Shown here: positions 2,901 through 21,476 of the stretch, piece after piece
How the letters are laid out: each line of letters begins with the position of its first letter
How positions within the stretch are numbered: position 1 is the stretch's first letter
Source: a virus
DNA length: 21,476 nucleotides
Virus record (IMG/VR): IMGVR_UViG_3300022539_000157
Location: 1-21,476 of that record
Reading direction: 5' to 3' (one strand)
The notes under the pieces: generated by a model
Seen by the model: the letters and a program-made list of their open reading frames with translations, nothing else
Told to the model about the DNA's origin: nothing
Databases searched by the model: none
Program-made: the position numbers and the translations under genes

Positions 2901-3294
2901 TAAACATAAACCGAAAAAGAAGAAAAGAGGTAGACCTCTCATAAAATTCGATTTAAAAGTCGTTGAAGCTTTTGGGGCTGTCAAGGCTTCGTATAGATTT
3001 ATGGCTGATTATTTCGGTTGTGAATTAAAGACTATTGATAGGCGGATGAAAAAAGAAGATGAAGATTTTTGTCTACACTATAAAAAAGGACTTGCAAAGA
3101 CTAAATTCAATCTTGCTAAAAAACAAATAGAGATTGCTATGGCTGGTAATGTTACTATGCTTATATGGCTTGGTAAACAATTACTTGAACAAAGCGATAA
3201 ACAAGAGATAGGAAAACCAGGGGATTTTGAAAGCACTGCTAAAGTCAATCTCAAACCTCTAAAGAAAAATGCAAGAAACAATAACAAGAAATAA
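2893..3294 (+). CDS. terS: Terminase small subunit
   Basis: This 133-aa protein would recognise the phage packaging site and regulate the large subunit. It has a Lys-rich N-terminus (residues 4-12), then a helix-turn-helix region of about residues 25-55 (AFGAVKASYRFMADYFGCELKTIDRRM). The segment GNVTMLIWLGKQLLEQSDK at about 89-107 is characteristic of phage small terminases. The start is a TTG with a modest AAGGCGG site at 2880-2886. No ATG lies earlier in the frame near a ribosome site. The C-terminal 25 codons overlap the large terminase gene, which is usual for the pair. The assignment rests on the sequence motif and on the position directly before the large subunit. Confidence 0.88.
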   Translation: MANKHKPKKKKRGRPLIKFDLKVVEAFGAVKASYRFMADYFGCELKTIDRRMKKEDEDFCLHYKKGLAKTKFNLAKKQIEIAMAGNVTMLIWLGKQLLEQSDKQEIGKPGDFESTAKVNLKPLKKNARNNNKK

Positions 3295-4498
3295 GCATAA
3301 TCTCGATGTTGAGATGGTGCATCCTGAAACTTATAATTTTCTTGAAAAATATCTTTATTTCTATGGAGGCAGAGGTGGAGGCAAGAGCAAGACGGTGGCA
3401 CGATTAGTTCCTCTACATTGTTGGGAGAATCCCGGCACGGTTGCCTTAATAACCCGTAAGACCTTCCCGTCTCTCAGAATAACCGCTATGAAGGATACGC
3501 TCAAAGCAATAGAAGAAATGAATATACCTGGTATGTTTTACAAGTCCGACAGTTATTTTCTGTATGTTAATGGTTCAATTATCTATTTTCTGCCTCTCTA
3601 CACTTCGACAGGTGGTAAGAACGAAAGGTTGAAATCACTCGACCTTAATATTGTCTGGATGGAAGAAGCGACCGAATGTGCGTTGTCTGATTTTATGACT
3701 CTCAATCCGAGCGTGAGATTGGAAGGAATACGGAAATGGTATTTTACTTTCAATCCCCCTGAGACTTCTCAACATTGGCTTTATAAGACATACGACATAC
3801 AGAAATCAGAAGGGACTGCGAGACGTGTGCATTTTGGATTGAAAGACAATCCGTTGTTGCCTGTTGAAATCATAGAGGAACTGAACAACCTCAAAAACAT
3901 AGATGAGGGGCTTTATTTGAGGTTCGCCAAAGGCGAATGGGGGATAGATGTATTGAGAGAGCGAGTGTGGGATAACGTTCACAGAGGAAAATTGACAGAC
4001 AAGAAGCCGAAGTTTGGGGCTATTGACTGGGGCTGGAGCGACCCGACCGTCTTCAATCCTTACGGATTGCAAGACAACGACGTTTATGTGATGAACGAGA
4101 TATACAAACGAAGAAAGCAACCTGAAGAAATAGGGGATATGATTATCGAAATGCTGAAAGGTTATCATATTTCTAAAGGCGGTATTCCCATCTATGCCGA
4201 TTCAGAAGCCCCTGAGAAGAATGCTAAACTTACGGATATGGGTTTGTGGATAGTTCCCGTCAAGAAAGGCAAGGGAAGCGTTGAGAAAGGGATTGTCAAG
4301 GTGCGGACTTTAACCGTTTACATTGACGAGGACAAATGTCCGAATACGTGGCGGGAAGTTACCAATTGGATATACCCGAAGGACAAAGACGGGAACACTA
4401 AAGAGAAACCCGTGGAATATAACGACCATTGTTGCGATACTTTGAGATATGGCGTTGTAGGATTTATGGGTGAAGAACTTCAATTATCGGTAGTGTAA
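3269..4498 (+). CDS. terL: Terminase large subunit
   Basis: ATP-driven packaging motor and headful or site-specific nuclease, acting at the portal. The ATPase has Walker A GGRGGGKS (residues 33-40) and Walker B IVWMEEATE (about 128-136) with the catalytic E. The RNase H-like nuclease has the expected acidic residues: D253 in FGAIDWGWSDP, D311 in YADSEAPE and D386/D390 in YNDHCCDTLRYG. At 409 aa it is a full-length member of the PBSX/Terminase_3-like group. The ATG at 3269 lies inside the small subunit gene, so the two are coupled. Nothing appears broken. Confidence 0.97.
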   Translation: MQETITRNKHNLDVEMVHPETYNFLEKYLYFYGGRGGGKSKTVARLVPLHCWENPGTVALITRKTFPSLRITAMKDTLKAIEEMNIPGMFYKSDSYFLYVNGSIIYFLPLYTSTGGKNERLKSLDLNIVWMEEATECALSDFMTLNPSVRLEGIRKWYFTFNPPETSQHWLYKTYDIQKSEGTARRVHFGLKDNPLLPVEIIEELNNLKNIDEGLYLRFAKGEWGIDVLRERVWDNVHRGKLTDKKPKFGAIDWGWSDPTVFNPYGLQDNDVYVMNEIYKRRKQPEEIGDMIIEMLKGYHISKGGIPIYADSEAPEKNAKLTDMGLWIVPVKKGKGSVEKGIVKVRTLTVYIDEDKCPNTWREVTNWIYPKDKDGNTKEKPVEYNDHCCDTLRYGVVGFMGEELQLSVV

Positions 4499-4698: not shown

Positions 4699-6642
4699 AT
4701 GCTTGAATTTGTCAAGAATAAAATGCGTGACTTTCTGGGGATTGAAACTAAAAGCTCTGGTTCTTATTCTTTGAATCTATTTCCAGAATGGGGACGGTTC
4801 GAGAAAGTCAAAGAGGGCGATTATGCCTCAATGGTGCGAAGCAACAAAGACTATGTGTATGCTTGCATAAATTGCCTTGCGTTCAACGTTTCCAAAGTTC
4901 CCTTCTATATATACAAACATACAGCCAAAGAAGATGTATTGATTCCAGAACATCCCTTCTATAATCTGCTTAAAAATCCCAATGAAAATATGTTGCCTAA
5001 CGTATTGCTCTATCTCTTGCAGGCTTTTCTTGACGCAACGGGCAACGCTTATCTTTATCACCCTTTGACTCCTGTCAATAGACCGGGTGCGTTGTATATC
5101 CTCGAGTCCCATCTTGTCAATCAAAGAATAGAAAAGGGCGTGTTTCTATATGATTACAATCACGGCGGACAGATGAAGACTTTCACGGGTGCTGAGGTTC
5201 TCCATTTTATGTATCCGAATATGGCGAATAAATACAGCGGGCTGGGACCAATAGAGGCGGGGCGGATGGGAATCAATCTCAATGAGTATATGAGTCAATA
5301 TCAGTTGAGCCTTTTGGCTAACAGGGCGAGACCTGATGGGGTTCTCAAGACAGACCAAGACATCGGCAAGAAAGAGAGAAGACGTGCGGGCAAAGAATGG
5401 ATGAAGCAATACGGAGGCGTTGACAAGGCGGGTAGAGTTGCGGTTCTCGGAAAAGGGCTTGACTATGAAGTTATTGCGTTATCACCAAAAGACCTCGCTT
5501 TTGTTGAAAGCAAGAATATGACAATAAAAGATATATGCGTAATGTTCGGAGTGCCTCTGTATAAACTTGGAATAGTTGAAGATGTCAATAGAGCCAATGC
5601 GGAAGCTTTAGAGCATTCGTTTCAGAAAGATACTATCGGCCCACGTTTGTATTGGAGGGACGCTTACTTCACGAAGTTGGTGCAGTTATATGACCCTCGA
5701 TTGATAGTGAAATCTGATAATGTAGTTCCCAGAGACAAAGATTATATTCTCAAAGAGCGTGAATTGAATCTCAAAACGGGTGTATGGGTTATCAATGATG
5801 TCAAGAAACAAATAGGAGAGGATGAAGTTTCTTATGGCAGGTTGCCTTACCTTCCGTTTAATCTTATGCAGGTTGGTTCTGCTCCTTCGGAGAAACCAGA
5901 AAAGGTTTATGTAGACACAAAAAATATCAAACAATGGAAGGAGCAGTATTGGAAGGTTTACGTTCGCAAGACTATCAATGAAGAAAGGTTAATGATTGCC
6001 AAACTTAGATTATATTTCGATGAGCAGATGAAAATAGTGCTTCGCAACATCAGAAAATACGGAAAGGGTTACAAGACAGACGTGAGTTTCTTTTTGTTCG
6101 CTATGAGCGAATGGAATGATAAGTTAGCTAAGATAATGAAACCGCTTGTTCAAGCGTCGGTTCTTAGCGGTGGTGAAAGTCTGATAGAAGACTTTGGGTT
6201 GGATGTGACGTTTGACATTACATCCCCTTTTGTAAGCGATTTCTTCTCAATGCGTGAAATGAAAATCAAACATATCAATAGAGACACATTCGATAAACTC
6301 ACTAAATCATTAACAGAGGGAATACAAGACGGTGAAACTATTAAAGAGTTATCCGCAAGGGTTGAAACCGTGTATTCAGACGCAAAGGGCTATCGTTCGA
6401 GAATGATAGCAAGAACTGAGACTAACATCGCCAACAACTTCGGGCATATGGAATCAATGAGATTAGCAGGCATAGAGAGAAAGGAATGGGTTACAGCGGG
6501 TGATGAAGATGTAAGATTTGAACACGACTTGAATGGTGACCAAGGGTGTATTGATTTTAATTCAGAATTTTACGGGACAAATGAGCAATACCCCGGTGAA
6601 ATAAATTGCAGGTGTGTTGTGATTCCCTGCTTGGAGGAATAA
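4699..6642 (+). CDS. Portal protein fused to MuF-type head protein
   Basis: The 647-aa product joins two head proteins that are often separate. Residues 1 to about 400 are an HK97-type portal, the dodecameric channel for DNA entry: DYVYACINCLAFNVSKVPFY, LLQAFLDATGNAYLY, SGLGPIEAGRMGINL and MFGVPLYKLGI fit the family. Residues from about 520 to 647 are a phage Mu F-like domain: ARTETNIANNF (from about 571), KEWVTAGDEDVRFEHDLNGD, and the terminal INCRCVVIPCLEE. A helical linker (about 410-520) connects them. MuF proteins are minor head proteins, and some are injected or guide the scaffold. The ATG follows two bases after the upstream stop; the ribosome site AGCGAGGAA (4682-4690) is moderate. 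Confidence 0.93.
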   Translation: MLEFVKNKMRDFLGIETKSSGSYSLNLFPEWGRFEKVKEGDYASMVRSNKDYVYACINCLAFNVSKVPFYIYKHTAKEDVLIPEHPFYNLLKNPNENMLPNVLLYLLQAFLDATGNAYLYHPLTPVNRPGALYILESHLVNQRIEKGVFLYDYNHGGQMKTFTGAEVLHFMYPNMANKYSGLGPIEAGRMGINLNEYMSQYQLSLLANRARPDGVLKTDQDIGKKERRRAGKEWMKQYGGVDKAGRVAVLGKGLDYEVIALSPKDLAFVESKNMTIKDICVMFGVPLYKLGIVEDVNRANAEALEHSFQKDTIGPRLYWRDAYFTKLVQLYDPRLIVKSDNVVPRDKDYILKERELNLKTGVWVINDVKKQIGEDEVSYGRLPYLPFNLMQVGSAPSEKPEKVYVDTKNIKQWKEQYWKVYVRKTINEERLMIAKLRLYFDEQMKIVLRNIRKYGKGYKTDVSFFLFAMSEWNDKLAKIMKPLVQASVLSGGESLIEDFGLDVTFDITSPFVSDFFSMREMKIKHINRDTFDKLTKSLTEGIQDGETIKELSARVETVYSDAKGYRSRMIARTETNIANNFGHMESMRLAGIERKEWVTAGDEDVRFEHDLNGDQGCIDFNSEFYGTNEQYPGEINCRCVVIPCLEE

Positions 6643-6944: not shown

Positions 6945-7132
6945 AATCACTAATTCAATCAGAGAAGAAAAGAAGTTTTGTTGACAAGTCGAAGATTGGC
7001 ATTGTGTGGATACCCGACCCGAATTGTAAGATATGTTACGGACGTGGATACATAGGGAAATATGTAAAGACGGAGCATCACGTTCCTTGTAAATGTTTGA
7101 AAGAGAACAAAGACAGGAGGATTGTAATATGA
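6941..7132 (+). CDS. Small protein with a DnaJ-like zinc motif
   Basis: A 63-aa basic protein. CKICYGRGYIG near the middle matches the CxxCxGxG element of DnaJ-type zinc fingers, and CKCL about 18 residues later offers the second Cys pair. I prefer the ATG at 6941 over the in-frame ATG at 6926. The former sits in an ATGA overlap with the previous stop and has GGAAG upstream; the latter has no ribosome site. The stop overlaps the next ATG (7129-7132). Only one finger is present, so it is not a chaperone. It may be a metal-binding adaptor. Confidence 0.65.
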   Translation: MKSLIQSEKKRSFVDKSKIGIVWIPDPNCKICYGRGYIGKYVKTEHHVPCKCLKENKDRRIVI

Positions 7133-7890
7133 AAAGTAAAATAGCAATGGCGTTTCTTCTGGGTATTTTTGTTATGATTTCGATAGGTGCGAGAAAATAT
7201 TTAACAACTCAACAGATATTGAATGATGTTTTAGTCAGAGGCGGAACTGCTATCAACGGGCATCACACTACACAGCAAGCTTTGAATATGGCGCATAACG
7301 TCAATGATAATGCTTTGAACATCTGGATTGATACGCTTGATTTTTTAGTGGTAACCGATAGCATAAAGGCGAGTTCGGGAATTTGGTGGTATTGCAAGTA
7401 TATAGACGCACTCAATGTCGCAGAAGGTGCTTCTGGCGCAACTTGGACAGCCCCGACATACAATACAATAGGAGGCTATCAACTTAACGCAAATACTGAA
7501 TATTTATATTTCAACGGGAATGTATGCAATAATTGGATTGGTGCGAGTGATATTGAAATTGTAATAGTGTGGGAATTGAATGTCGCTTCCGTTTCCGCAA
7601 CGGACACCGTTGAACTCGATTTGTTATGCTGGTATAAAGGGGAAACTGAAGACACGACAAAATATCAAGCGTTGAATGTGAGGACTTGCGTGGGGAATGA
7701 AACTCGATATACAATGCACAGAATCACATTTGAAATGGATTGGGATTTGGCTAACAATGTCATTGAAGTAGGAGACATTATTTCTTTTCGACTCAATCTC
7801 GATACAGCCAACTCAGACAAGGACGATGTGATTTTCAATTTTACAAATTATCGTTATTTGACGGATGTGCCACAAGTTAAAAATTATTAA
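7129..7890 (+). CDS. Signal-peptide-bearing beta-rich protein, possible virion surface protein
   Basis: A 253-aa product starting at the ATG preceded by AGGAGG (7115-7120). An earlier in-frame ATG at 7093 has no site. Residues 1-20 (MKSKIAMAFLLGIFVMISIG) form a Sec-like signal or membrane anchor, without a lipobox Cys. Residues 21-75 include TTQQILNDVL and HHTTQQALNMAHN. The remainder is a long beta-rich domain with ASDIEIVIVWELN and DTVELDLLCWYKG, reminiscent of beta-sandwich decoration or fibre proteins of phages (weak resemblance by eye). It lies between portal and protease, where virion components are expected, yet a signal sequence is unusual there. Whether it is exported or keeps the helix inside the virion cannot be decided here. 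Confidence 0.75.
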   Translation: MKSKIAMAFLLGIFVMISIGARKYLTTQQILNDVLVRGGTAINGHHTTQQALNMAHNVNDNALNIWIDTLDFLVVTDSIKASSGIWWYCKYIDALNVAEGASGATWTAPTYNTIGGYQLNANTEYLYFNGNVCNNWIGASDIEIVIVWELNVASVSATDTVELDLLCWYKGETEDTTKYQALNVRTCVGNETRYTMHRITFEMDWDLANNVIEVGDIISFRLNLDTANSDKDDVIFNFTNYRYLTDVPQVKNY

Positions 7891-7900
7891 GGAGGATGGT

Positions 7901-8377
7901 ATGAGGAAATGTGAATTTTTTATTTTGTTTATCTCGCTTGCAGTAATTTTCACTATCGGCTGGCGATGGACTAACGTCGGGCATACTTGGAACTTGCGAC
8001 CTCTAACCGTTACAAGCGAGGCTCAATTCTGGGTTGTATCTGATAGTGATACGGTATGGACTGAACACGTGGCGGACAGACTCATAGACTCATTGTTTGT
8101 CATTGGTGGAGTTGAACGAGGCGTAACACTTGAGTTCTTTTTCTGCCCGTATGGTGATAGCGGGAAAGTAACTCTGTTATGGTTTTACGGAAATGACAGA
8201 TACACATTGCTTGTTGATACGATTGTGGATACGACTTTGGCAAGCCTTGATACATTACACGAAACTTACGCAATGACACACTTTCAAGATAAGTGGGCAT
8301 CCGTTATGTTCGGGGATAGCATAGACCCGACCGCTGGTGATAGCGTAAGATATTGGCTTGTTGAATATGACCAATAA
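7901..8377 (+). CDS. Second signal-anchor protein, small beta-rich
   Basis: A 158-aa protein beginning MRKCEFFILFISLAVIFTIG, a hydrophobic N-terminal helix followed by GWRWTNVGHTW. The rest is beta-rich with repeated Asp-Ser/Thr-hydrophobic turns (SDTVW, DSLFV, DTIV, DTLHE, DSIDP, DSVRY). I chose the ATG at 7901 with AAGGAGGAT (7889-7897). A Met 12 codons upstream lies in the previous gene without a site. It is tandem with the preceding signal-peptide gene, separated by 10 bases. No clear AxA cleavage site is visible, so it may remain anchored. Function unknown. Confidence 0.72.
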   Translation: MRKCEFFILFISLAVIFTIGWRWTNVGHTWNLRPLTVTSEAQFWVVSDSDTVWTEHVADRLIDSLFVIGGVERGVTLEFFFCPYGDSGKVTLLWFYGNDRYTLLVDTIVDTTLASLDTLHETYAMTHFQDKWASVMFGDSIDPTAGDSVRYWLVEYDQ

Positions 8378-8386
8378 GGAGGAAAA

Positions 8387-8602
8387 TTGAAATATCAATT
8401 TGTAAATTGGTTTCCTGAATTTGTTGGATTTGGATTTGTTAGATTAAATATTTCAAGTTCAAATTTAGCCTTGATATATGATTGGTCTTTTAGATTTGGT
8501 TTTTGTAAATTAAGAAAATGGCACAAGATAACTTCTGAAGATTTGCAAAAATCAAGTAAAATAGATGAATTATACAATAGGTTTGTAAGGGGGGCGATGT
8601 AA
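8387..8602 (+). CDS. Small hypothetical protein with TTG start
   Basis: A 71-aa basic, aromatic-rich protein (KYQFVNWFPEFVGFGFVRL). The TTG at 8387 is chosen because AAGGAGG (8377-8383) sits just upstream, and no ATG follows until the very end. Its stop shares a base with the protease ATG (TAATG at 8600-8604). It is AT-rich relative to the protease gene. No family recognised. Confidence 0.55.
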   Translation: MKYQFVNWFPEFVGFGFVRLNISSSNLALIYDWSFRFGFCKLRKWHKITSEDLQKSSKIDELYNRFVRGAM

Positions 8603-9963
8603 TGGATAAAGAAAAGATGTTATATAAATATTTCGATACTTCCGCTTGCAAGATTGTTGAGTCTGATGATGAGGAACGGACTTTGATTTTCACCATTTCA
8701 GATGAAACGGTAGATAGATACAAAGAGATAATGAAGGCGAAGGGTTGTCAATTGGAAGAATATCTGAAAAATCCCGTTGTCTTGTGGGCTCATAACAGAA
8801 ATCAAGAATTGCCTCCGATTGGAAGGGCTGAATGGGTTAAGAAAGTAAAGAATTCACTCAAGGCAAAGGTGCAATTCGCACCGACTGAGTTTGCAACAAG
8901 TATCTATGAACTTTATAAAAAAGGATTTATGAATGGCGTTTCAGTTGGCTATATCACTTTGGAATGGAAGGATGTTGTTGAGGATAACGACACACCTGCC
9001 AGAAAGATAATTGAGAAATGGGAGTTGCTTGAATTCTCAGCCGTGCCCGTGCCTGCCAATCCCAACGCTTTGATTTCAGCAAGAGATGCGGGAATAGAAG
9101 TTCCCGAATTGGCAATGAAATCCTTTGAAGATTGGTGTAAAAAAGAAACTAAATTCTGTCAAGCACATTCTTGCTCAAAATTCCCTTGTGAAAACAGCAA
9201 AGAAAGAGATGTAGTTTTTGAGAAACTATATAAAGAAGAAACTCCAATAGAGGAAACCCCAGAGATAGCACTATCAGAAGAAGAAGTAAAACTCTTGCTC
9301 GAAGAAAAACCTTTTGAGAATGAGCATAGTTGCAGGTTGGAAGATCCGAAACAGTTCGACAAGTTCAATCGCAAGAATTGCCAGCAGAAACACGACGGGA
9401 AATGTATCGACGTTATCTTTGGAATCAAGGCTAATAAGTCGAAGATTCAAGCGTTGAGATACAATAAGAAAGTATGGACGGAAGGAAGTGCAAAAGCACA
9501 TTGCAAGACCAGAGAGGGAAGATTTGAGCCTGCGAAAAAAGACAAGAAAGATATTGATTATAATGCTTTTATCGGAATAGTTCACGGAGATGATTATACT
9601 TCGGATTATATTTGTATACACAAAGACCTTGTTGAGTTATTTGGTGAAGAAAAAGCAGATGCAATATGGACAGGAGAACTTGATTTGATAGAAATATTAA
9701 AATCAATTCTTAAAAAAGACCATAACGAAATTGACCTTGAAAATATCGAGGTTAATGATGGCGAGGAAATTAACCTTGCCGAAATAGAAGTCCTTGAGAC
9801 TGGACTGGAGAGTTCAGATAAAGATGTTCTCGACCTTACCGAAAAGGACGTTGAGGATTTGATAAAAGACCTCAAAAAAGAATTCGGTGAAGAAATCAGC
9901 GAAAAGGTTGTGAACGGATTTATTGGAGAACTCAGGACAAAGTATCTGGGAAAAGTTGACTAA
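8602..9963 (+). CDS. HK97-family prohead protease with long C-terminal extension
   Basis: A serine protease (peptidase S78-like) that cleaves capsid and scaffold segments during head maturation. The N-terminal ~165 residues carry the signature: H64 in LWAHNRNQ, S114 in NGVSVGY, and LEFSAVPVPANPNAL. At 453 aa it is more than twice the size of a bare protease. Residues about 240-310 hold a Cys/Trp-containing module (NRKNCQQKHDGKC, then KVWTEGSAKAHCKTREGRFE). A WT..A..HC type motif occurs in other phage proteases. Residues about 360-450 are strongly acidic and leucine/isoleucine-rich helices. The acidic tail may act as a built-in scaffold (inference). Ribosome site AAGGGGGG at 8588-8595. Confidence 0.92.
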   Translation: MDKEKMLYKYFDTSACKIVESDDEERTLIFTISDETVDRYKEIMKAKGCQLEEYLKNPVVLWAHNRNQELPPIGRAEWVKKVKNSLKAKVQFAPTEFATSIYELYKKGFMNGVSVGYITLEWKDVVEDNDTPARKIIEKWELLEFSAVPVPANPNALISARDAGIEVPELAMKSFEDWCKKETKFCQAHSCSKFPCENSKERDVVFEKLYKEETPIEETPEIALSEEEVKLLLEEKPFENEHSCRLEDPKQFDKFNRKNCQQKHDGKCIDVIFGIKANKSKIQALRYNKKVWTEGSAKAHCKTREGRFEPAKKDKKDIDYNAFIGIVHGDDYTSDYICIHKDLVELFGEEKADAIWTGELDLIEILKSILKKDHNEIDLENIEVNDGEEINLAEIEVLETGLESSDKDVLDLTEKDVEDLIKDLKKEFGEEISEKVVNGFIGELRTKYLGKVD

Positions 9964-9986: not shown

Positions 9987-11189
9987 GTGGAAACCACAAA
10001 AACCATAACGTATGAGAAACTTAAAGATAAACTGAAAGGAGAAATCTTTGGTGAACTCATACCAGAAACCTCAAAGAAAATCATTGAAGACCTCTTTGAA
10101 AAACCAGAGATGAAGAAACTCTTTGAGGAACATAACAAACTTGTGGCTCAGGGCGTTGACCTTAAGAAACAAGCGGAGCAAGACGTTCCCTTTGCTCAAT
10201 CTGCAAGATTCATCAGAGCACTCCACGCTGATGATAGAAAGACACTTGCGGAAATTCAGAAGGCGGAAATCGATAAGTGGGAAAGAAAGAACGGATTGAC
10301 TTATATGAGCGAAGGCGACAACGTTCAAGGCGGTTATCTCGTTCCCGTCGAATATTACGATGAGATTATGAGACTTCCCTGTGCTTACGGTATTGCAAGG
10401 AGAGACTGTCGGATTATCCCGATGAACAGCAGTGTAATGCACATAACCACATCCGCCGGGCTTCCAACAACTTACTGGATTGGCGAGGCGGCTCAGAAAG
10501 TAGAAAGCAAGCCAACTTTTGGAAGGGTAACATTGACGGCGGTGAAACAAATTGCCCTTGTCGTGTTTACCGACGAACTGCTTGCCGATGCGACACCTCC
10601 ACTCGTGCAGTATATCATCGAGGTTACAAGAGAAGCCATTGCACAGGGCGAAGATGAAGCTCTGTTTAATGGCAACGGTGGAGCGGGTATCACGGGCGTT
10701 CTCGCTTGTGGCACTCAGGTGACGATGGATAACAACAGACAGTCATTCACTCAGGTTCACACGGACGACATCATTCGCTTACCTGATGCGGTCGCTTGCA
10801 ACGCTGAAGTTGGAGGGAAATATTACTTCCATAAAAACATCTTGACGCATCTTAGACTGTTAAAGGCCACAACAGGCGCTTACATTCTCAACGAAGTTCC
10901 CGTAACAGGCGGGCCAGGAACATTGAACGGTTATCCATTTGAGGTAAGTCCTCAGATGCCGAACAATGCCGATGATGCAGTTGACACTCCCTTCATCATT
11001 TTCACTAATATGAAAAGAACAGTCGCATTCGGAGACAGACAGATGCTTACAGTGAAAATGGCAGATCAGGCAACGATTACAGCAGTGAACTTGTTTGTTT
11101 ATGATATGCAGGCTTTACGCTTTGTCGAAAGGCTCGACATCGAGTGCCTGCTTCCAACTGGTATTGCAGTTCTTTACACCGCACCATAA
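9987..11189 (+). CDS. Major capsid protein, HK97 fold
   Basis: A 400-aa coat protein. Residues 1 to about 105 are charged and helical, like the delta or scaffolding domain of HK97-type coat proteins that the protease removes. GGYLVPVEYYDEIM at about 115-128 marks the usual start of the mature subunit. TTYWIGEAAQKVESKPTFGRV and KQIALVVFTDELLAD follow, as in HK97-type E-loop and spine-helix regions. The start is a GTG with a near-perfect AGGAGG (9976-9981); the nearest ATG lies inside the domain. GTG on an abundant protein is unusual but well supported. It lies directly after the protease, the normal order. Confidence 0.93.
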   Translation: METTKTITYEKLKDKLKGEIFGELIPETSKKIIEDLFEKPEMKKLFEEHNKLVAQGVDLKKQAEQDVPFAQSARFIRALHADDRKTLAEIQKAEIDKWERKNGLTYMSEGDNVQGGYLVPVEYYDEIMRLPCAYGIARRDCRIIPMNSSVMHITTSAGLPTTYWIGEAAQKVESKPTFGRVTLTAVKQIALVVFTDELLADATPPLVQYIIEVTREAIAQGEDEALFNGNGGAGITGVLACGTQVTMDNNRQSFTQVHTDDIIRLPDAVACNAEVGGKYYFHKNILTHLRLLKATTGAYILNEVPVTGGPGTLNGYPFEVSPQMPNNADDAVDTPFIIFTNMKRTVAFGDRQMLTVKMADQATITAVNLFVYDMQALRFVERLDIECLLPTGIAVLYTAP

Positions 11190-11201
11190 AAGGAGGGAAA
11201 A

Positions 11202-11720
11202 GTGAAAAAGATATTTATTATTGCAATGCTTCTCGCACTTATGATTTCTGTCCCTCTTTTCTCGCAGATAAAACCCGCCCCTATTTATTGGGCGAAGTTT
11301 ACGGGTTTTGTGAGCATTACAGGAGTGGACACTATTGTTGGAACTGCAACAGACACCATCATCATAAACATTCATAATTGTTATGAGAACTATTATGCTC
11401 CAGCGGATACTCAAGCTTCATTAGTAAGGACTGTATGGTGTCTTGCTATTTATGCCAATGAGGCGGTCAATGATTCTGTCGATTGGGATTTGGATTTATC
11501 GCTGAGTCCCGACAGTCTTCATTGGAATTACAGAGGCGAAATAGGACCGCATACGATGTCGGCAGATTCGCTATTGTTATATAGCATAACTAAAGATGCC
11601 GATTTAATGGAATGGCTGAGAATCATACGTGTCGGCGGAGCGGCCAACGACGCAAGTGCAGGTTCGATAGGTGAGATATTTTTGATATGGCGAGTTCCGA
11701 ACATCAGAGGGAAATACTAA
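11202..11720 (+). CDS. Signal-peptide protein in decoration-protein position
   Basis: A 172-aa product that starts at a GTG preceded by AAAGGAGGG (11188-11196). Residues 1-22 (KKIFIIAMLLALMISVPLFS after Met) form a classical signal peptide with a plausible cleavage before QIKP. The rest is a beta-rich domain with many Asp-Ser/Thr turns (DTIVGTATDTIII, NDSVDWDLDLSL, PDSLHWNYRG, SADSLLLYS). The length and the site immediately after the capsid gene are those of head decoration proteins, but a signal peptide is not expected for one. It resembles the 7901 and 21257 products in composition. No family recognised. Confidence 0.78.
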   Translation: MKKIFIIAMLLALMISVPLFSQIKPAPIYWAKFTGFVSITGVDTIVGTATDTIIINIHNCYENYYAPADTQASLVRTVWCLAIYANEAVNDSVDWDLDLSLSPDSLHWNYRGEIGPHTMSADSLLLYSITKDADLMEWLRIIRVGGAANDASAGSIGEIFLIWRVPNIRGKY

Positions 11721-13962: not shown

Positions 13963-14142
13963 ATGAGTAAGGGCAAGAAAGAAGAAGCAACACCAAAGAA
14001 GAAAAAGAAAACCGTCAAAGAATTGAAAGCGGAACTTGCAGAAATCAAGAAAGAATTTTTACAGGTTCAGATTGATTATAAAAAACGGATTCTTTCTTTG
14101 ATAAAACGGATAAACAAGAAAGTATTAGGAGGTGATAAATAA
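13963..14142 (+). CDS. Small Lys-rich coiled-coil protein
   Basis: A 59-aa protein with a highly basic N-terminus (KGKKEEATPKKKKKTVKE) and a predicted long helix (ELKAELAEIKKEFLQVQIDY). Ribosome site AGGAGG at 13953-13958. The stop shares a base with the tail protein ATG (TAATG, 14140-14144). No family recognised. A coiled-coil adaptor or nucleic acid binder is possible from composition only. Confidence 0.6.
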   Translation: MSKGKKEEATPKKKKKTVKELKAELAEIKKEFLQVQIDYKKRILSLIKRINKKVLGGDK

Positions 14143-15152
14143 TGGGATACGGTGATTATGTAGAAATCAGAACAGGCACGGGAACGATTGACAGAGGCTC
14201 AGGACCCGTAAGCGTCGGCAACATAAAACTCCATTCATTCACTCCAAACAAGGAAATCCACGAAGTTATATCAGGACCAACAAAAGGAGTGATTGATACC
14301 AAAGAATTTGTTGATTTTACCTCTATGAAATGGACTCTTGACAAACATACATACGCTCTTGTTCAAGAACTGTTTGGAGTTACAGCGGTGGTGGCAGGTG
14401 CGTCAAGGACACTAATCACGGCTGAATCGTTTGTCTTGAGCGGAACTAAACTCGGTGGTGATGCGGTATCACTCAATCACGGACAGGCTTCTGAAAGACC
14501 TATATCAATCGAATGTATCGAATTGATATTTCAAGTAGCGGCATATACGGATTGCATACCAGGTGATATAGGGTTACAAGTTCTCGGTGGAGTTAGTGGT
14601 GATACAGGAACTCTAATCGCTTACGATAATGCCACAAGAACCTGGTTAGTTGCAAGGGACACTCACGCAGACGTCTATCAGGCAGAGGCGGTGACTATAC
14701 CATTAGGCACAGGAGCAGGCACGATTGCGGCAGGCGGTGATATAACACCTTGCGGATTGTGGCCTGACGCATTACAGGCAGGAGCGGAATGGGTAGAAGG
14801 CACGGACTTTGACCTTGACTTCCACGACGGGCAGGTTTCAAGGCTTGTAGGTGGTGGAATAGGCGACCCTGAGACGGTTTATGGTTGGTATTCTTACGCC
14901 ATAGTAGCATCCGCAACGATGAATTTCCCGAAGGGCGATACACCAATAACAACAAGGGGAGAATATATATATAGCCATAAACTTCAAAATAGTAAGACAC
15001 AGGAAATTAAAATACCAGATGGCTATATCACAAATAACATTGAGATTGTTCACGCACCAGACGGCTTGACCGAATACATCATAGAAATCAAGTCAGTTGA
15101 ATACGGCACAGATGTCGATGCAGAACACGGACACGATAAGAGAATAACATAA
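14142..15152 (+). CDS. Probable major tail (tube) protein with accessory domains
   Basis: A 336-aa protein placed between the terminator-like gene and the chaperone pair, where siphoviruses encode the tube subunit. The N-terminus (YGDYVEIRTGTGTID, NIKLHSFTPNKEIHEV, VDFTSMKWTLD) and the C-terminus (TTRGEYIYSHKL, EYIIEIKSVEYGTD) are beta-rich, as in tube subunits. Residues about 128-201 form an extra domain with IPGDIG, GVSGDTGTLIAYDN. Without gaps it resembles residues 20-92 of the protein encoded at 20060. Residues 216-253 (EWVEGTDFDLDFHDGQVSRL) resemble the insert of the connector. AGGAGGTGA (14127-14135) is the ribosome site. The tube role is inferred. Confidence 0.68.
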   Translation: MGYGDYVEIRTGTGTIDRGSGPVSVGNIKLHSFTPNKEIHEVISGPTKGVIDTKEFVDFTSMKWTLDKHTYALVQELFGVTAVVAGASRTLITAESFVLSGTKLGGDAVSLNHGQASERPISIECIELIFQVAAYTDCIPGDIGLQVLGGVSGDTGTLIAYDNATRTWLVARDTHADVYQAEAVTIPLGTGAGTIAAGGDITPCGLWPDALQAGAEWVEGTDFDLDFHDGQVSRLVGGGIGDPETVYGWYSYAIVASATMNFPKGDTPITTRGEYIYSHKLQNSKTQEIKIPDGYITNNIEIVHAPDGLTEYIIEIKSVEYGTDVDAEHGHDKRIT

Positions 15153-17406: not shown

Positions 17407-20063
17407 AAACTCTAACCCCTGCATTTGTCAAGGCACAGAAAAAAAAGAATGTTAAAACGTGGAGAAAAGTAATTCTTGAGGAAATCTCAACTGATGCACA
17501 AGTCGATATAACCGAATATGTTGAAAATGTTAGTAAAGTCGAACAACAAATAGAAGAAAAATTTTGTGAATTCATACCGACGACCGTAACTTTCACCGTT
17601 ACAGATAAAGAAACTCAAGATTATGATTTCTTTACGCAAGGAGAAACAACGGGGTTTTTTGACAAATTAATTAAAGCGACAGTGCAAGGATATAAAATAA
17701 TTCTCAAGGAAGGTATAGATGGGATTGCTGATGAGATAGTGAGTTTCGATGGTGAGGTAGATATTGAAAGCGTTCATCGGATAGATAGACAAACGATAGT
17801 ATTCACAGCAACGGGTTGGCTAAGAGATGCAGGAAGATATGATGCCTCGATTATTTCAGACCCCGATAATCCTCCGTTCAAAAATGTTACAGGTATTACA
17901 GTTAATTATCCAGGAGGTGGTATACAGGGTGTTCCTGGGGGGAAATATATCGAAACAGGAGGAAAGACAGGTTCGGGTATAGAAGAAAAATGTTGGATAA
18001 GTTATAATGGAGGTAAAAAAGAATGGCTGACATATCCTGGGGGGAATACCTTTATTTATGAACCGAATTATAAAGGAAAAATGTGGATTACTTACACTCT
18101 TGCTGATATTCCCGAAGAACCAGCAAAAGATTATTTTTCTGTAAGAATGTATGAAGGTGCGTTAATTGCTTGTGGGTATTATGAGCATATACCTATAGAA
18201 GAAGCAGTTGATTTAATATGTGATGAATGGTGGGGGGAAGGAGTTGGCACAAGAGACATACAAGTAGAAGAAATCGGTGGCGGAATTTTAGAAAAACATT
18301 TCATATACCTTGCTCCGATTTATGATGCGGGCAACAAATCGGATGTTAAAATAACAGCAAGCAAGGTGATAAGTTATGCAGGCAATCTTATCACAATGCT
18401 TGTGGCTATTGAATGGAAGAAGGCAGATAATACTAAAATTTACAAAGTCGTTATTGATGTTAATGCAAGAACCAGAACAGTTACAGAAATGGCAGAATGG
18501 TATGCGGGAGTCAGAGTAGCAAGATTTTTTAATGCTAACGGTCGATGGTGGGGGCTTGTTGGACAGGAAGTAACGGGCATCCTGGGGAAAGAATGGTATG
18601 GTGTGGCATTCTATAAATTCAATGTTGCTTTGACTGGTATTGAGTTAGTTCGTAATATTCCTTTCAATCATACTCTCCCAGGTTGGTATCATTATAATCT
18701 CTATTCCTTCACGCTTAAAAACGAAGGTGTGGCAGGAAGCAAGGATTTTTACTGCATCCGTCAAAACGCCGAAGCAGGAATGGTTTATACTGTGAAATTA
18801 TATAAATACGATATAAATGCGGATACGTGGACAAGTGTAGTAACTATGATAAATAATGCAGTTGCTTATAATAAAGGAACGTGGGCTATCTTGGAGGGTA
18901 ACATAGAATATTATTATTTTGCTTGCAAAAAATATATCGGGGGGACAATAGTCCATACAACAAGTTACATTATGGCATATAAAATGACGGGCGTTCCTGG
19001 ACTTACTGAAATAACGACTTTTACAAGTTCGGTATCAACTGTAATAAGTGATTGCTATTGGAGGCAAAAAATTGGTTCTCCCAATTCTGTCTTTTTGAAA
19101 TTTGAAGACCCAAGTTCAGAACTTGCTTATAAACTTCATCACTTGCTTTATGAAATAATTCCGAATGGAGACAAGATTAAATATTTCGGTGGGAATAATT
19201 TATTTGATGACCGATATACTGCTTGGCGATATGAAGACGATCAATGGCGGATAATGTTTTTTTATGGCAGTTTCTATTTTGGCGGAAATGTTCAAACCGA
19301 AGATATTTTAGATTCTGATTATGTCGGAAATATAATACATCCACGAATCTTCAAAGATTTTGGAAGTGGGAATTATTATTATTGTGGATTTGTAACCGAT
19401 GAAAGTAATAGAGTGATTCCTTTTCTCTATATTAAAGAAACAACTACCGCTCATACAATCAAAGAATTAGATTTAACAGATTGGACAATATGGGAGGCTC
19501 TTAAATATCTTGCTCAAGGTTTCTTGTGTTACTTTGTAGTTCCTGAGTATCAAAAAATACAATTTTATCACCGCAAGAAAAACAAAGGAGTTTTGACTTT
19601 AGTAAAAGAAGATTACAAGAAACAACCGAATATGAGAATATACAATAACTTTGCCGATGGTGTTCATATCGAAAATTCAAAATATGAACTCAGTGAAAAG
19701 CGGGGCAATACACTCAAAAAATCAAAAGTTTTTGCATTCGATAATAGATTAACAAGCGAGGACAGTATTGGTATTGTTGCTGATTGGTATTATGCTTTTC
19801 TTGTAACTGACGGAAGAAGAAAAGAGTTTGAGGTCGTTGCTCCGTTCAGGATAGAAATCGAGCCGATGGATAAAGTTACGCTTATTCTTTACGATAGATT
19901 TCTTAACACATTTTGGACTAAAGAGACATTAGTATATGAAACATCTTCTGAACCTTGGGTAAACAAAGAGGCAGCACACGATGTTATCTTAAAACTAATT
20001 GAGAAAGAAGGTGAAGGAGATATTCACGAACTTATACCAGAACGAAGGAGTGTATCTGTATGA
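17403..20063 (+). CDS. Tail-tip/baseplate hub protein with propeller-like insert
   Basis: An 886-aa protein following the tape measure with an ATGA overlap. Residues 1 to about 150 look like a distal-tail or hub N-terminus (VDITEYVENVSKVEQQIEE, VSFDGEVDIESVHRID, VFTATGWLRDAGRYD). Residues 160-230 are Gly-rich (YPGGGIQGVPGGKYI, YNGGKKEWLTYPGG). Residues about 300-680 show five to seven irregular beta repeats with aromatic ends (KIYKVVIDVNART, VKLYKYDINADTW, SYIMAYKMTGV), like a beta-propeller. Residues about 690-886 (IWEALKYLAQGFLCYFVVPE, KIQFYHRKKNKG, RNTFWTKETLVYE-like end) resemble a gp27/hub-type domain. No separate distal tail protein gene is seen, so this one may combine both roles. The domain reading is by eye. 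Confidence 0.78.
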   Translation: MKTLTPAFVKAQKKKNVKTWRKVILEEISTDAQVDITEYVENVSKVEQQIEEKFCEFIPTTVTFTVTDKETQDYDFFTQGETTGFFDKLIKATVQGYKIILKEGIDGIADEIVSFDGEVDIESVHRIDRQTIVFTATGWLRDAGRYDASIISDPDNPPFKNVTGITVNYPGGGIQGVPGGKYIETGGKTGSGIEEKCWISYNGGKKEWLTYPGGNTFIYEPNYKGKMWITYTLADIPEEPAKDYFSVRMYEGALIACGYYEHIPIEEAVDLICDEWWGEGVGTRDIQVEEIGGGILEKHFIYLAPIYDAGNKSDVKITASKVISYAGNLITMLVAIEWKKADNTKIYKVVIDVNARTRTVTEMAEWYAGVRVARFFNANGRWWGLVGQEVTGILGKEWYGVAFYKFNVALTGIELVRNIPFNHTLPGWYHYNLYSFTLKNEGVAGSKDFYCIRQNAEAGMVYTVKLYKYDINADTWTSVVTMINNAVAYNKGTWAILEGNIEYYYFACKKYIGGTIVHTTSYIMAYKMTGVPGLTEITTFTSSVSTVISDCYWRQKIGSPNSVFLKFEDPSSELAYKLHHLLYEIIPNGDKIKYFGGNNLFDDRYTAWRYEDDQWRIMFFYGSFYFGGNVQTEDILDSDYVGNIIHPRIFKDFGSGNYYYCGFVTDESNRVIPFLYIKETTTAHTIKELDLTDWTIWEALKYLAQGFLCYFVVPEYQKIQFYHRKKNKGVLTLVKEDYKKQPNMRIYNNFADGVHIENSKYELSEKRGNTLKKSKVFAFDNRLTSEDSIGIVADWYYAFLVTDGRRKEFEVVAPFRIEIEPMDKVTLILYDRFLNTFWTKETLVYETSSEPWVNKEAAHDVILKLIEKEGEGDIHELIPERRSVSV

Positions 20064-20731
20064 TAGGTGGAAAGGGATATGCTAAAATCAGATTAGTATA
20101 TGAGATACGAAGGACGTTGACTTTTGTGGCTAATCCTGGTTTCGTTCCTGGGGATATAGGGAAAACTTGCAAAGGAGCAGTAACGGGTGATACGGGAGAA
20201 TTGATAAGTTATAATAATGTTGCAAAAACCTGTGTAATTGAAATGGACGATTCAGGGGATTTATTTGACCAAGTCGAATTGGTATCCGTAACAGGGGGGG
20301 TAGGTTCGGGAAATACAACAGGAGCAAGTGTTCTTACCGAAAGCGATTATTTTCAATTTACCGCAAGAGAGGAAAAAAACATTTTCTTAAAATTTGTTCC
20401 CGTCCTTGATTGTGAAGATAAAAGAATGGAAAGTGGATTCAAAAGGTTTGAGCAAGGTTCGAGATTTTGGTGTTATTTAGATTTTCTTGCAGACGATTGG
20501 GTTATAACACTTTCAAACTTAGGTTATTCACTTCAAAAATTCATTAAAAATATGCAGAATTGGAAAGAATTGATTTATATAATTTCGCATATAGACAAAC
20601 CCAATCAAGAATATCTTGTTAAAAGAATGCATGAATACGGTTTCGATTATCCATTTGAAAGATGGGTTGGACAGGAAGGAAGTTTTGTATTTCGTGGTGA
20701 TGAAATATTAGATGTTGATTTAGAGGAGTAA
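20060..20731 (+). CDS. Tail-tip protein with shared accessory domain
   Basis: A 223-aa protein starting within the stop of the hub gene (ATGA at 20060-20063). Residues 20-92 (VPGDIGKTCKGAVTGDTG, ELISYNN, then SVTGGVGSGNTTGAS) align without gaps to residues about 130-202 of the probable tube protein. The remaining two thirds (FKRFEQGSRFWCYLDFLADD, YSLQKFIKNMQNWKELIYII) appear alpha-beta and match nothing I know. A homopolymer of seven G (20294-20300) is in frame. Position suggests a baseplate or tail-tip component. Confidence 0.7.
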   Translation: MIGGKGYAKIRLVYEIRRTLTFVANPGFVPGDIGKTCKGAVTGDTGELISYNNVAKTCVIEMDDSGDLFDQVELVSVTGGVGSGNTTGASVLTESDYFQFTAREEKNIFLKFVPVLDCEDKRMESGFKRFEQGSRFWCYLDFLADDWVITLSNLGYSLQKFIKNMQNWKELIYIISHIDKPNQEYLVKRMHEYGFDYPFERWVGQEGSFVFRGDEILDVDLEE

Positions 20732-20733
20732 AT

Positions 20734-21246
20734 ATGGCTAATGAAAAAACGATAATCGATGAAGTTACAGTAAGAGACCAACACGGAGAGGCACAACCAG
20801 GATTGACAACGGTTTGGTGGTATCCTTGGAAAACAGTGGTTAATGGAACTCAAGGAACTGATTTAACCGATGGGCGTTACAGAGCAACAATAAATAGTGT
20901 GAATACTGGAAAGATTGCGAAATATTACGACCTCTATATTGCTGGTGCTAAGAAAATCGAGAAAATACCCATAGGTGTTTCGTGGGAATGGATTATCGAC
21001 GTTGCAGTCAACACCAACCCGAAGACAGTAACGTTCAACGGTTTAGTTGACGCTTTACAAGGTGGAAATTTGCCGACCACAATCCCCGATGTTCTGGTAG
21101 AAATAATGTCTTCAGAAAAAGGCAGGAGTTTTTATTTGTATGACATAACCACGACGAATTTCAAGATAGGAGTGCAGTTGGGAGGCGACGACAATGCGGG
21201 ATTGCCCGTAACGGTCAGAATAAAAGTAACAGTTGGAGAAAGTTAA
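20734..21246 (+). CDS. Hypothetical tail-tip protein
   Basis: A 170-aa protein after the hub region, with the ribosome site GAGGAG at 20723-20728. The N-terminal 60 residues (TVRDQHGEAQPGLTTVWWYP, LTDGRYRATINSV) look like a beta-rich attachment domain with a Gln/Pro-rich turn. The middle has a short helix (GLVDALQGGNLP). The C-terminus is beta-rich (RSFYLYDITTTNFKIGVQLG, GLPVTVRIKVTVG), typical of a phage tail-fibre-associated or carbohydrate-binding fold by composition only. No family recognised. Confidence 0.65.
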   Translation: MANEKTIIDEVTVRDQHGEAQPGLTTVWWYPWKTVVNGTQGTDLTDGRYRATINSVNTGKIAKYYDLYIAGAKKIEKIPIGVSWEWIIDVAVNTNPKTVTFNGLVDALQGGNLPTTIPDVLVEIMSSEKGRSFYLYDITTTNFKIGVQLGGDDNAGLPVTVRIKVTVGES

Positions 21247-21256
21247 AGGAGGTATT

Positions 21257-21476
21257 ATGAAGAAATTGATTTTTATTGGTTTAATGATAGTGGCTTTATT
21301 CTTGTCTGGTTTGTTTATGTGGGGTTATACGATTTATGACAATGTTTTGAGATTGGGAAGTGCGGATGCACCTGCGGGAATAGATAGTTTATTTTACATT
21401 GTGAGAGTGAGAACGGGCGGGGACGACACGGTTACGACAATCGACACATTGTGGAATTACACGATTTTCGCAGACA
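21257..21476 (+). CDS. Fourth signal-anchor protein, 3' partial
   Basis: The gene runs off the end of the window; 73 residues are visible. ATG at 21257 with AAAGGAGG (21245-21252). Residues 1-23 (KKLIFIGLMIVALFLSGLFM after Met) are a hydrophobic signal or anchor. Then come GIDSLFYIVRVRTGG and DDTVTTIDTLWNYTIF, with the same Asp-Ser/Thr turns as the 7901 and 11202 products. Position behind the tail-tip genes suggests a virion or host-surface role. Function unknown. Confidence 0.72.
   Translation, partial: MKKLIFIGLMIVALFLSGLFMWGYTIYDNVLRLGSADAPAGIDSLFYIVRVRTGGDDTVTTIDTLWNYTIFAD

Follow-up and report, generated by a model that had tools for sequence, protein, structure and literature searches.

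A tailed-phage contig carries, inside its structural operon, four genes for proteins with predicted Sec signal peptides, and the mature parts of these proteins are rich in the sequon of Bacteroidota general O-glycosylation. We propose, with a probability of about 0.5, that they are late proteins exported and glycosylated by the host, and that they most likely serve as outer appendages of the virion.

Locus and signal-peptide genes

The window (the whole stretch of DNA analyzed) is a viral contig of 21.5 kb, positions 1 to 21,476 of IMG/VR record IMGVR_UViG_3300022539_000157. Its late operon runs in the order terminase, portal, SP1, SP2, prohead protease, major capsid protein (MCP), SP3 and head-tail genes; it continues with the tape measure, tail-tip genes and an Ig-like protein, then SP4 at the contig end. 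SP1–SP4 are the four signal-peptide proteins. The features discussed are as follows; sequon counts refer to the motif defined below.

4699–6642, + strand: portal protein with a fused Mu-F-like domain (portal match to phrog_2662, 2e-78)
7115–7120, + strand: ribosome-binding site of SP1, AGGAGG, read in the sequence
7129–7890, + strand: SP1, 253 aa, predicted signal peptide (about residues 1–21) and beta-rich mature part; 5 sequons, 1.1 expected
7901–8377, + strand: SP2, 158 aa, predicted signal peptide (about residues 1–20) and beta-rich mature part; 7 sequons, 1.0 expected
8602–9963, + strand: prohead protease (Peptidase_S78, 3e-11)
9987–11189, + strand: MCP (alignment and tblastn to annotated major capsid proteins)
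11202–11720, + strand: SP3, 172 aa, signal-peptide protein directly 3' of the MCP gene; 5 sequons, 0.8 expected
20734–21246, + strand: Ig-like distal tail protein lacking a signal peptide (weak Pfam Big_1 match, below cut-off)
21257–21476, + strand: SP4, N-terminal part of a signal-peptide protein encoded 3' of the distal tail genes, truncated where the contig stops

A sequence-only reading of the window had described two tandem genes with Sec-like hydrophobic N-termini between portal and protease, and similar genes at 11202 and 21257, four in all. This description holds. Both tandem open reading frames are present, flanked by the portal and protease genes and preceded by strong ribosome-binding sites (AGGAGG at 7890–7895 for SP2). 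An in-frame ATG at 7093 lies upstream of SP1, but the ribosome-binding site favors the start at 7129. SP3 has a GTG start with AGGAGG at 11191–11196. All four N-termini are of the same type: an n-region with K/R, then an h-region with a Kyte-Doolittle value of 2.8–3.3 over 12 residues, then small residues. A second membrane segment was found in none of them, nor was a lipobox within the first 40 residues.

Signal peptides were called from hydropathy, charge and c-region. Among genes of at least 90 aa, this rule selects 3 of 20 in the window, a count that leaves out SP4 as too short because of its truncation, versus 12 of 588 in more distant portal-related contigs, so that the window holds more such genes than chance would give.

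Two other observations concern the operon itself. The putative tail tube protein (14142–15152) and a distal tail protein (20060–20731) have in common a module of about 65 aa with 38% identity, probably a duplicated domain. From portal to tail, members of the clade have homologous genes, whereas most terminase genes (window 3269–4498 versus L002, L008, L012 and L017) have no blastp match, and the window terminase is only 23–25% identical to those of L004 and L010; this mismatch suggests that the packaging module has been exchanged.

Conservation and selection

Relatives of the window are contigs from IMG/VR scans, which are metagenomic and mostly partial. SP1 and SP2 occur together at the same place in L002, with 76–80% identity in the best segments. 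The SP1 copy of L002 (4073–4612) is 77% identical and shortened: it stops after 179 aa and its C-terminal residues recur downstream in another frame, so it is either a deletion or frameshift variant or an assembly error. The SP2 family is found between portal and protease in L002, L008/L009, L012/L013, L017 and L024. Between the window and L002, SP2 is 79% identical, compared with 65% for the portal and 57% for the protease.

The gene after the MCP encodes a signal-peptide protein in the window, L003, L004, L005, L006, L007, L008, L012, L017, L030 and L115, that is, in all clade members whose contig spans the slot. Seven contigs that are more distant but have a recognizable MCP lack a signal peptide in the product of the next gene. 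Within the clade the slot is common but homology is unproven: a profile comparison of the two SP3 groups (window/L012 type and L006 type) gave a probability of only 1.8%, and the window SP3 matches the L012-type group.

Full-length counterparts of SP4 are 437 aa (G001) and 465 aa (G003) long and follow the Ig-like gene on contigs of 34 and 35 kb. The G001 counterpart has fibre-like repeats, as judged by eye. Neither a Pfam or PHROGs match over cut-off nor a tblastn match to cultured phages was found for these counterparts. In a further clade member, another signal-peptide protein of the same style (L010 699–1130) is encoded immediately 5' of the terminase gene.

The signal peptide is kept in every homolog of SP1–SP4 that we found; homologs without the N-terminal helix, which would have spoken against export, did not appear among them. 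Using unsaturated dS only, dN/dS of the mature parts is 0.03–0.06 for SP2 and SP3 and about 0.05 for SP1. These ratios indicate that purifying selection on the mature parts is strong. The signal regions change faster in most comparisons: dN is 0.21 in the signal region versus 0.05 in the mature part for SP2 of L008 and L017, and 0.40 versus 0.13 for SP1 of the window and L002. The exception is SP3 of L003 and L006, which shows no such difference. Despite this faster change, signal regions stay hydrophobic. A region that drifts and yet remains hydrophobic points to a cleaved export signal, unlike a helix packed in a capsid.

A match to the O-glycosylation sequon of Bacteroidota

The target of Bacteroidota O-glycosylation is D followed by S or T and, at the third position, mostly L, I, V, T, A or S, and it is used only in non-cytoplasmic proteins; in Bacteroides fragilis E is not tolerated in place of D, and the same sequon is reported to be enriched in Fibrobacterota too (PMC12871550). 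We write the sequon D-(S/T)-(L/I/V/T/A/S/M) and counted it as D-[ST]-[AILVMT] against composition shuffles.

The four SP mature parts in the window contain 20 sequons, compared with 3.5 in shuffles, and the other window genes contain 8, compared with 14.4. The Ig-like distal tail protein, an internal control, has none. Across the window clade, signal-peptide proteins have 69 sequons where 14 are expected (z=16, about five-fold). The excess is repeated in G001 (16 versus 3.2), G003 (21 versus 4.5) and G005 (9 versus 1.3), and it holds independently in a set made up of L003, L006, L030, L010 and L024. When genes are divided by the presence of an N-terminal hydrophobic segment, the 18 that have one contain 73 sequons (14.5 expected) and the 118 others contain 61 (64.8 expected). 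Beta-rich virion proteins without signals are depleted (8 versus 20.7 expected), which argues that the sequon is not general to beta proteins.

D precedes [ST][LIVTAM] 84 times versus 19.6 expected, and E-substituted, N-substituted, reversed and transposed motifs show no significant enrichment. The third position favors V/L/T/I/S/A (P=2e-13), as in the published sequon (PMC12871550). Motif residues are also preferentially conserved: 11 of 14 in SP2, versus 17 of 122 other residues, and 10 of 10 in SP3 of the L006 type, versus 50 of 167. The sequence-only reading had noted Asp-Ser/Thr-hydrophobic repeats in these proteins and taken them for turns. The repeats are real, but they match the O-glycosylation sequon and do not look like mere turns.

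A spanin-like, membrane-anchored protein of a lysis cassette (L020 8977–9681; G001 26976–27680) also carries more sequons than expected (4 versus 0.7). Such an excess would be expected if, in this host, every phage protein that is exported bears the motif.

A separate N-x-S/T lineage

N-x-S/T shows no excess in the window clade. An unrelated tailed-virus lineage (L062, L066, L074 and L096; whole contigs L120–L127) encodes signal-peptide fibre-like proteins of 400–1100 aa that are rich in N-x-S/T:

L062, 7007–8962: signal-peptide fibre-like protein rich in N-x-S/T
L066, 10759–13569: the same type
L074, 13459–14372: the same type
L096, 13544–14372: the same type

There N-x-S/T occurs 241 times versus 126 expected (z=11.3), and D-S/T-hydrophobic is not in excess. 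One of the fibre-like proteins has a Laminin_G_3 lectin domain (5e-14); Peptidase_S74, looked for in this lineage, is absent. We tentatively infer an archaeal host for it.

Family, structure and host searches

The sequence-only reading knew of no described family that fits, and this stands for the databases we searched. SP1–SP4 had nothing over cut-off in Pfam and PHROGs, nor did SP1, SP2 and SP3 against PDB sequences, and tblastn of P0001 against cultured phages gave no match. The four proteins show no mutual sequence relation in the comparisons run, and a profile comparison of SP2 with SP3 gave no convincing relation.

Structure prediction gave models of SP2 (6 sequences) at pLDDT 53 and SP3 (11 sequences) at pLDDT 57. 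In these low-confidence models the mature parts are beta-rich and the N-terminal helix is a separate element. Nor do these models show the helix packed into a known fold, the outcome that the sequence-only reading had named as contrary to its view. Matches of the models to BFVD folds had TM below 0.6, mostly below 0.5, and were dropped as evidence.

Scans of genomes with the MCP alignment found no host or prophage, and scans with the portal alignment found only two weak matches to the Mu-F domain. Four cultured Bacteroidota phages (11b, B124-14, P12002L and FCL-2) have no such signal-peptide gene in their head modules. The few exported, lysis-type proteins of cultured Bacteroidota phages carry the sequon above chance in 3 of 4 (P about 0.03 each), and no sequon excess is seen in the stretches taken from two phages that infect other hosts. 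Strong ribosome-binding sites precede 19–42% of first ATGs in the window clade, versus 0–11% in cultured Bacteroidota phages. Because of this usage, an ordinary member of Bacteroidia is an unlikely host.

Proposed explanation and alternatives

We propose that SP1–SP4 are late proteins of a distinct clade of tailed phages. They would be exported by Sec into the host periplasm and lose the signal peptide there, and the host would attach O-glycans to their numerous D-(S/T)-hydrophobic sites. Afterwards they would become outer appendages of the particle: SP3 a head decoration, SP4 a tail fibre, and SP1 and SP2 further accessory appendages. They would join virions at or after lysis, and the virion would then wear host sugars. 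The steps differ in strength. Export is very probable from sequence: the signal peptides are conserved in all homologs, mostly drift faster than the mature parts and go together with an export-linked sequon, all of which supports the export suggested by the sequence-only reading. Glycosylation is probable, given the sequon. Attachment to virions falls a little short of an even chance. It is favored by slots that adjoin the MCP, portal and tail tip and by the strong conservation of SP2. In the textbook picture, both synthesis and assembly of tailed-phage structural proteins are cytoplasmic. An exported protein could therefore not reach the virion before lysis, which counts against attachment.

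The main rival to virion attachment is action on the host envelope. Proteins with beta domains, exported and glycosylated in the same way, may stay in the envelope and, late in infection, alter surface receptors or make them inaccessible, for superinfection exclusion or to stop progeny sticking to debris. Lom, Llp and Cor are well-known examples of phage proteins that are exported and affect the host envelope, and the export and sequon evidence serves this explanation equally; we regard it as a serious possibility, at clearly less than even odds. It does not account for SP2 being no less conserved than the portal and the protease between the window and L002, unlike fast-changing exclusion factors, or for the fibre-like repeats in the G001 counterpart of SP4, and SP1–SP4 have no lipobox, second membrane segment or match to a membrane or outer-membrane family in Pfam or PHROGs. 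The sequence-only reading had named both host surface modification and a virion role; the fixed slots lean toward virion appendages.

Other explanations deny modification, export or a place in the particle. D-S/T-hydrophobic may be a structural trait of a beta fold, a turn followed by a strand, in proteins that are exported and unmodified. The mature parts are beta-rich, and many of the motifs could begin strands. However, the depletion in the remaining beta-rich virion proteins of these phages, the failure of E or N to replace D, and the excess in proteins of other folds (the G001 spanin-like protein and the exported ones from cultured Bacteroidota phages) make this unlikely, as does an excess common to SP1, SP2, SP3 and SP4, for which the comparisons run gave no mutual sequence relation. 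It is less likely still that SP1–SP4 are cytoplasmic virion proteins whose hydrophobic helix serves for anchoring or packing and not for export. Their genes do lie within the structural operon, and the helix is modelled, at low confidence, as a separate element; against this stand the n/h/c architecture with small residues ahead of the mature part, the faster drift of the signal region in most pairs, and the concentration of a sequon of non-cytoplasmic proteins in the SPs together with its depletion in signal-less beta-rich virion proteins. Phage proteins exported late in infection often function in lysis, and SP1–SP4 could be accessory lysis proteins that weaken the envelope from beyond the cytoplasmic membrane. 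This is very improbable, as G001 and G003 have a lysis cassette elsewhere (Amidase_3 at 2.6e-25, small membrane proteins and a spanin-like protein) and SP1–SP4 have no enzymatic or spanin features in Pfam or PHROGs.

Relation to known systems

The proposed modification resembles Bacteroidota general O-glycosylation in its sequon, its concentration in proteins with export signals and the failure of E to replace D (PMC12871550). It differs in that the putative targets are late-operon proteins of a phage, and in a host that is probably no ordinary member of Bacteroidia.

Head decoration or fibre proteins such as phi29 gp8.5 and lambda gpD are encoded beside the major capsid gene. SP3 is like them in that its gene adjoins that of the MCP and its product is small and beta-rich; it is unlike them in its Sec signal peptide and export-linked sequon, and, as a candidate decoration protein, it had no sequence match in Pfam, PHROGs or PDB. 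Superinfection-exclusion proteins of the envelope (Llp, Cor and Lom) are also phage-encoded and exported. In contrast to these, SP1–SP4 have no lipobox or membrane domain and form a multi-gene set in fixed slots of the structural operon. We rejected identity with superinfection-exclusion lipoproteins because no lipobox cysteine follows the h-region.

The archaeal head-tailed virus HRTV-DL1 has structural proteins with host-type sequons, and glycoprotein staining is reported for it (PMC10384203). It too is a tailed virus with host-type sequons on proteins of the structural operon, but the modification is N-glycosylation and the host an archaeon. Infection was unaffected by impaired host N-glycosylation, and the paper does not discuss signal peptides (PMC10384203).

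Our searches of the open-access literature turned up neither a description of Sec signal peptides on structural-operon proteins of tailed phages nor one of phage targets for Bacteroidota O-glycosylation. Tentatively, and at well under even odds, some tailed viruses may route outer appendages through host Sec and glycosylation and add them to completed particles at lysis, a route that would have arisen at least twice, with O-type sequons in this clade of bacterial viruses and N-type sequons in the unrelated lineage.

Implications

An exported, sequon-rich set of proteins in a head and tail operon would point to one of two things: virion surfaces glycosylated by host machinery in a way new to phages, or a new group of secreted late effectors. 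If outer appendages do take the host route, virions could bear host sugars although the phage has no glycosyltransferase of its own. Phage-encoded glycoproteins could serve disguise, adhesion or receptor competition. With the sequon, a simple sequence screen could find further examples, and it also hints at which group the host belongs to.
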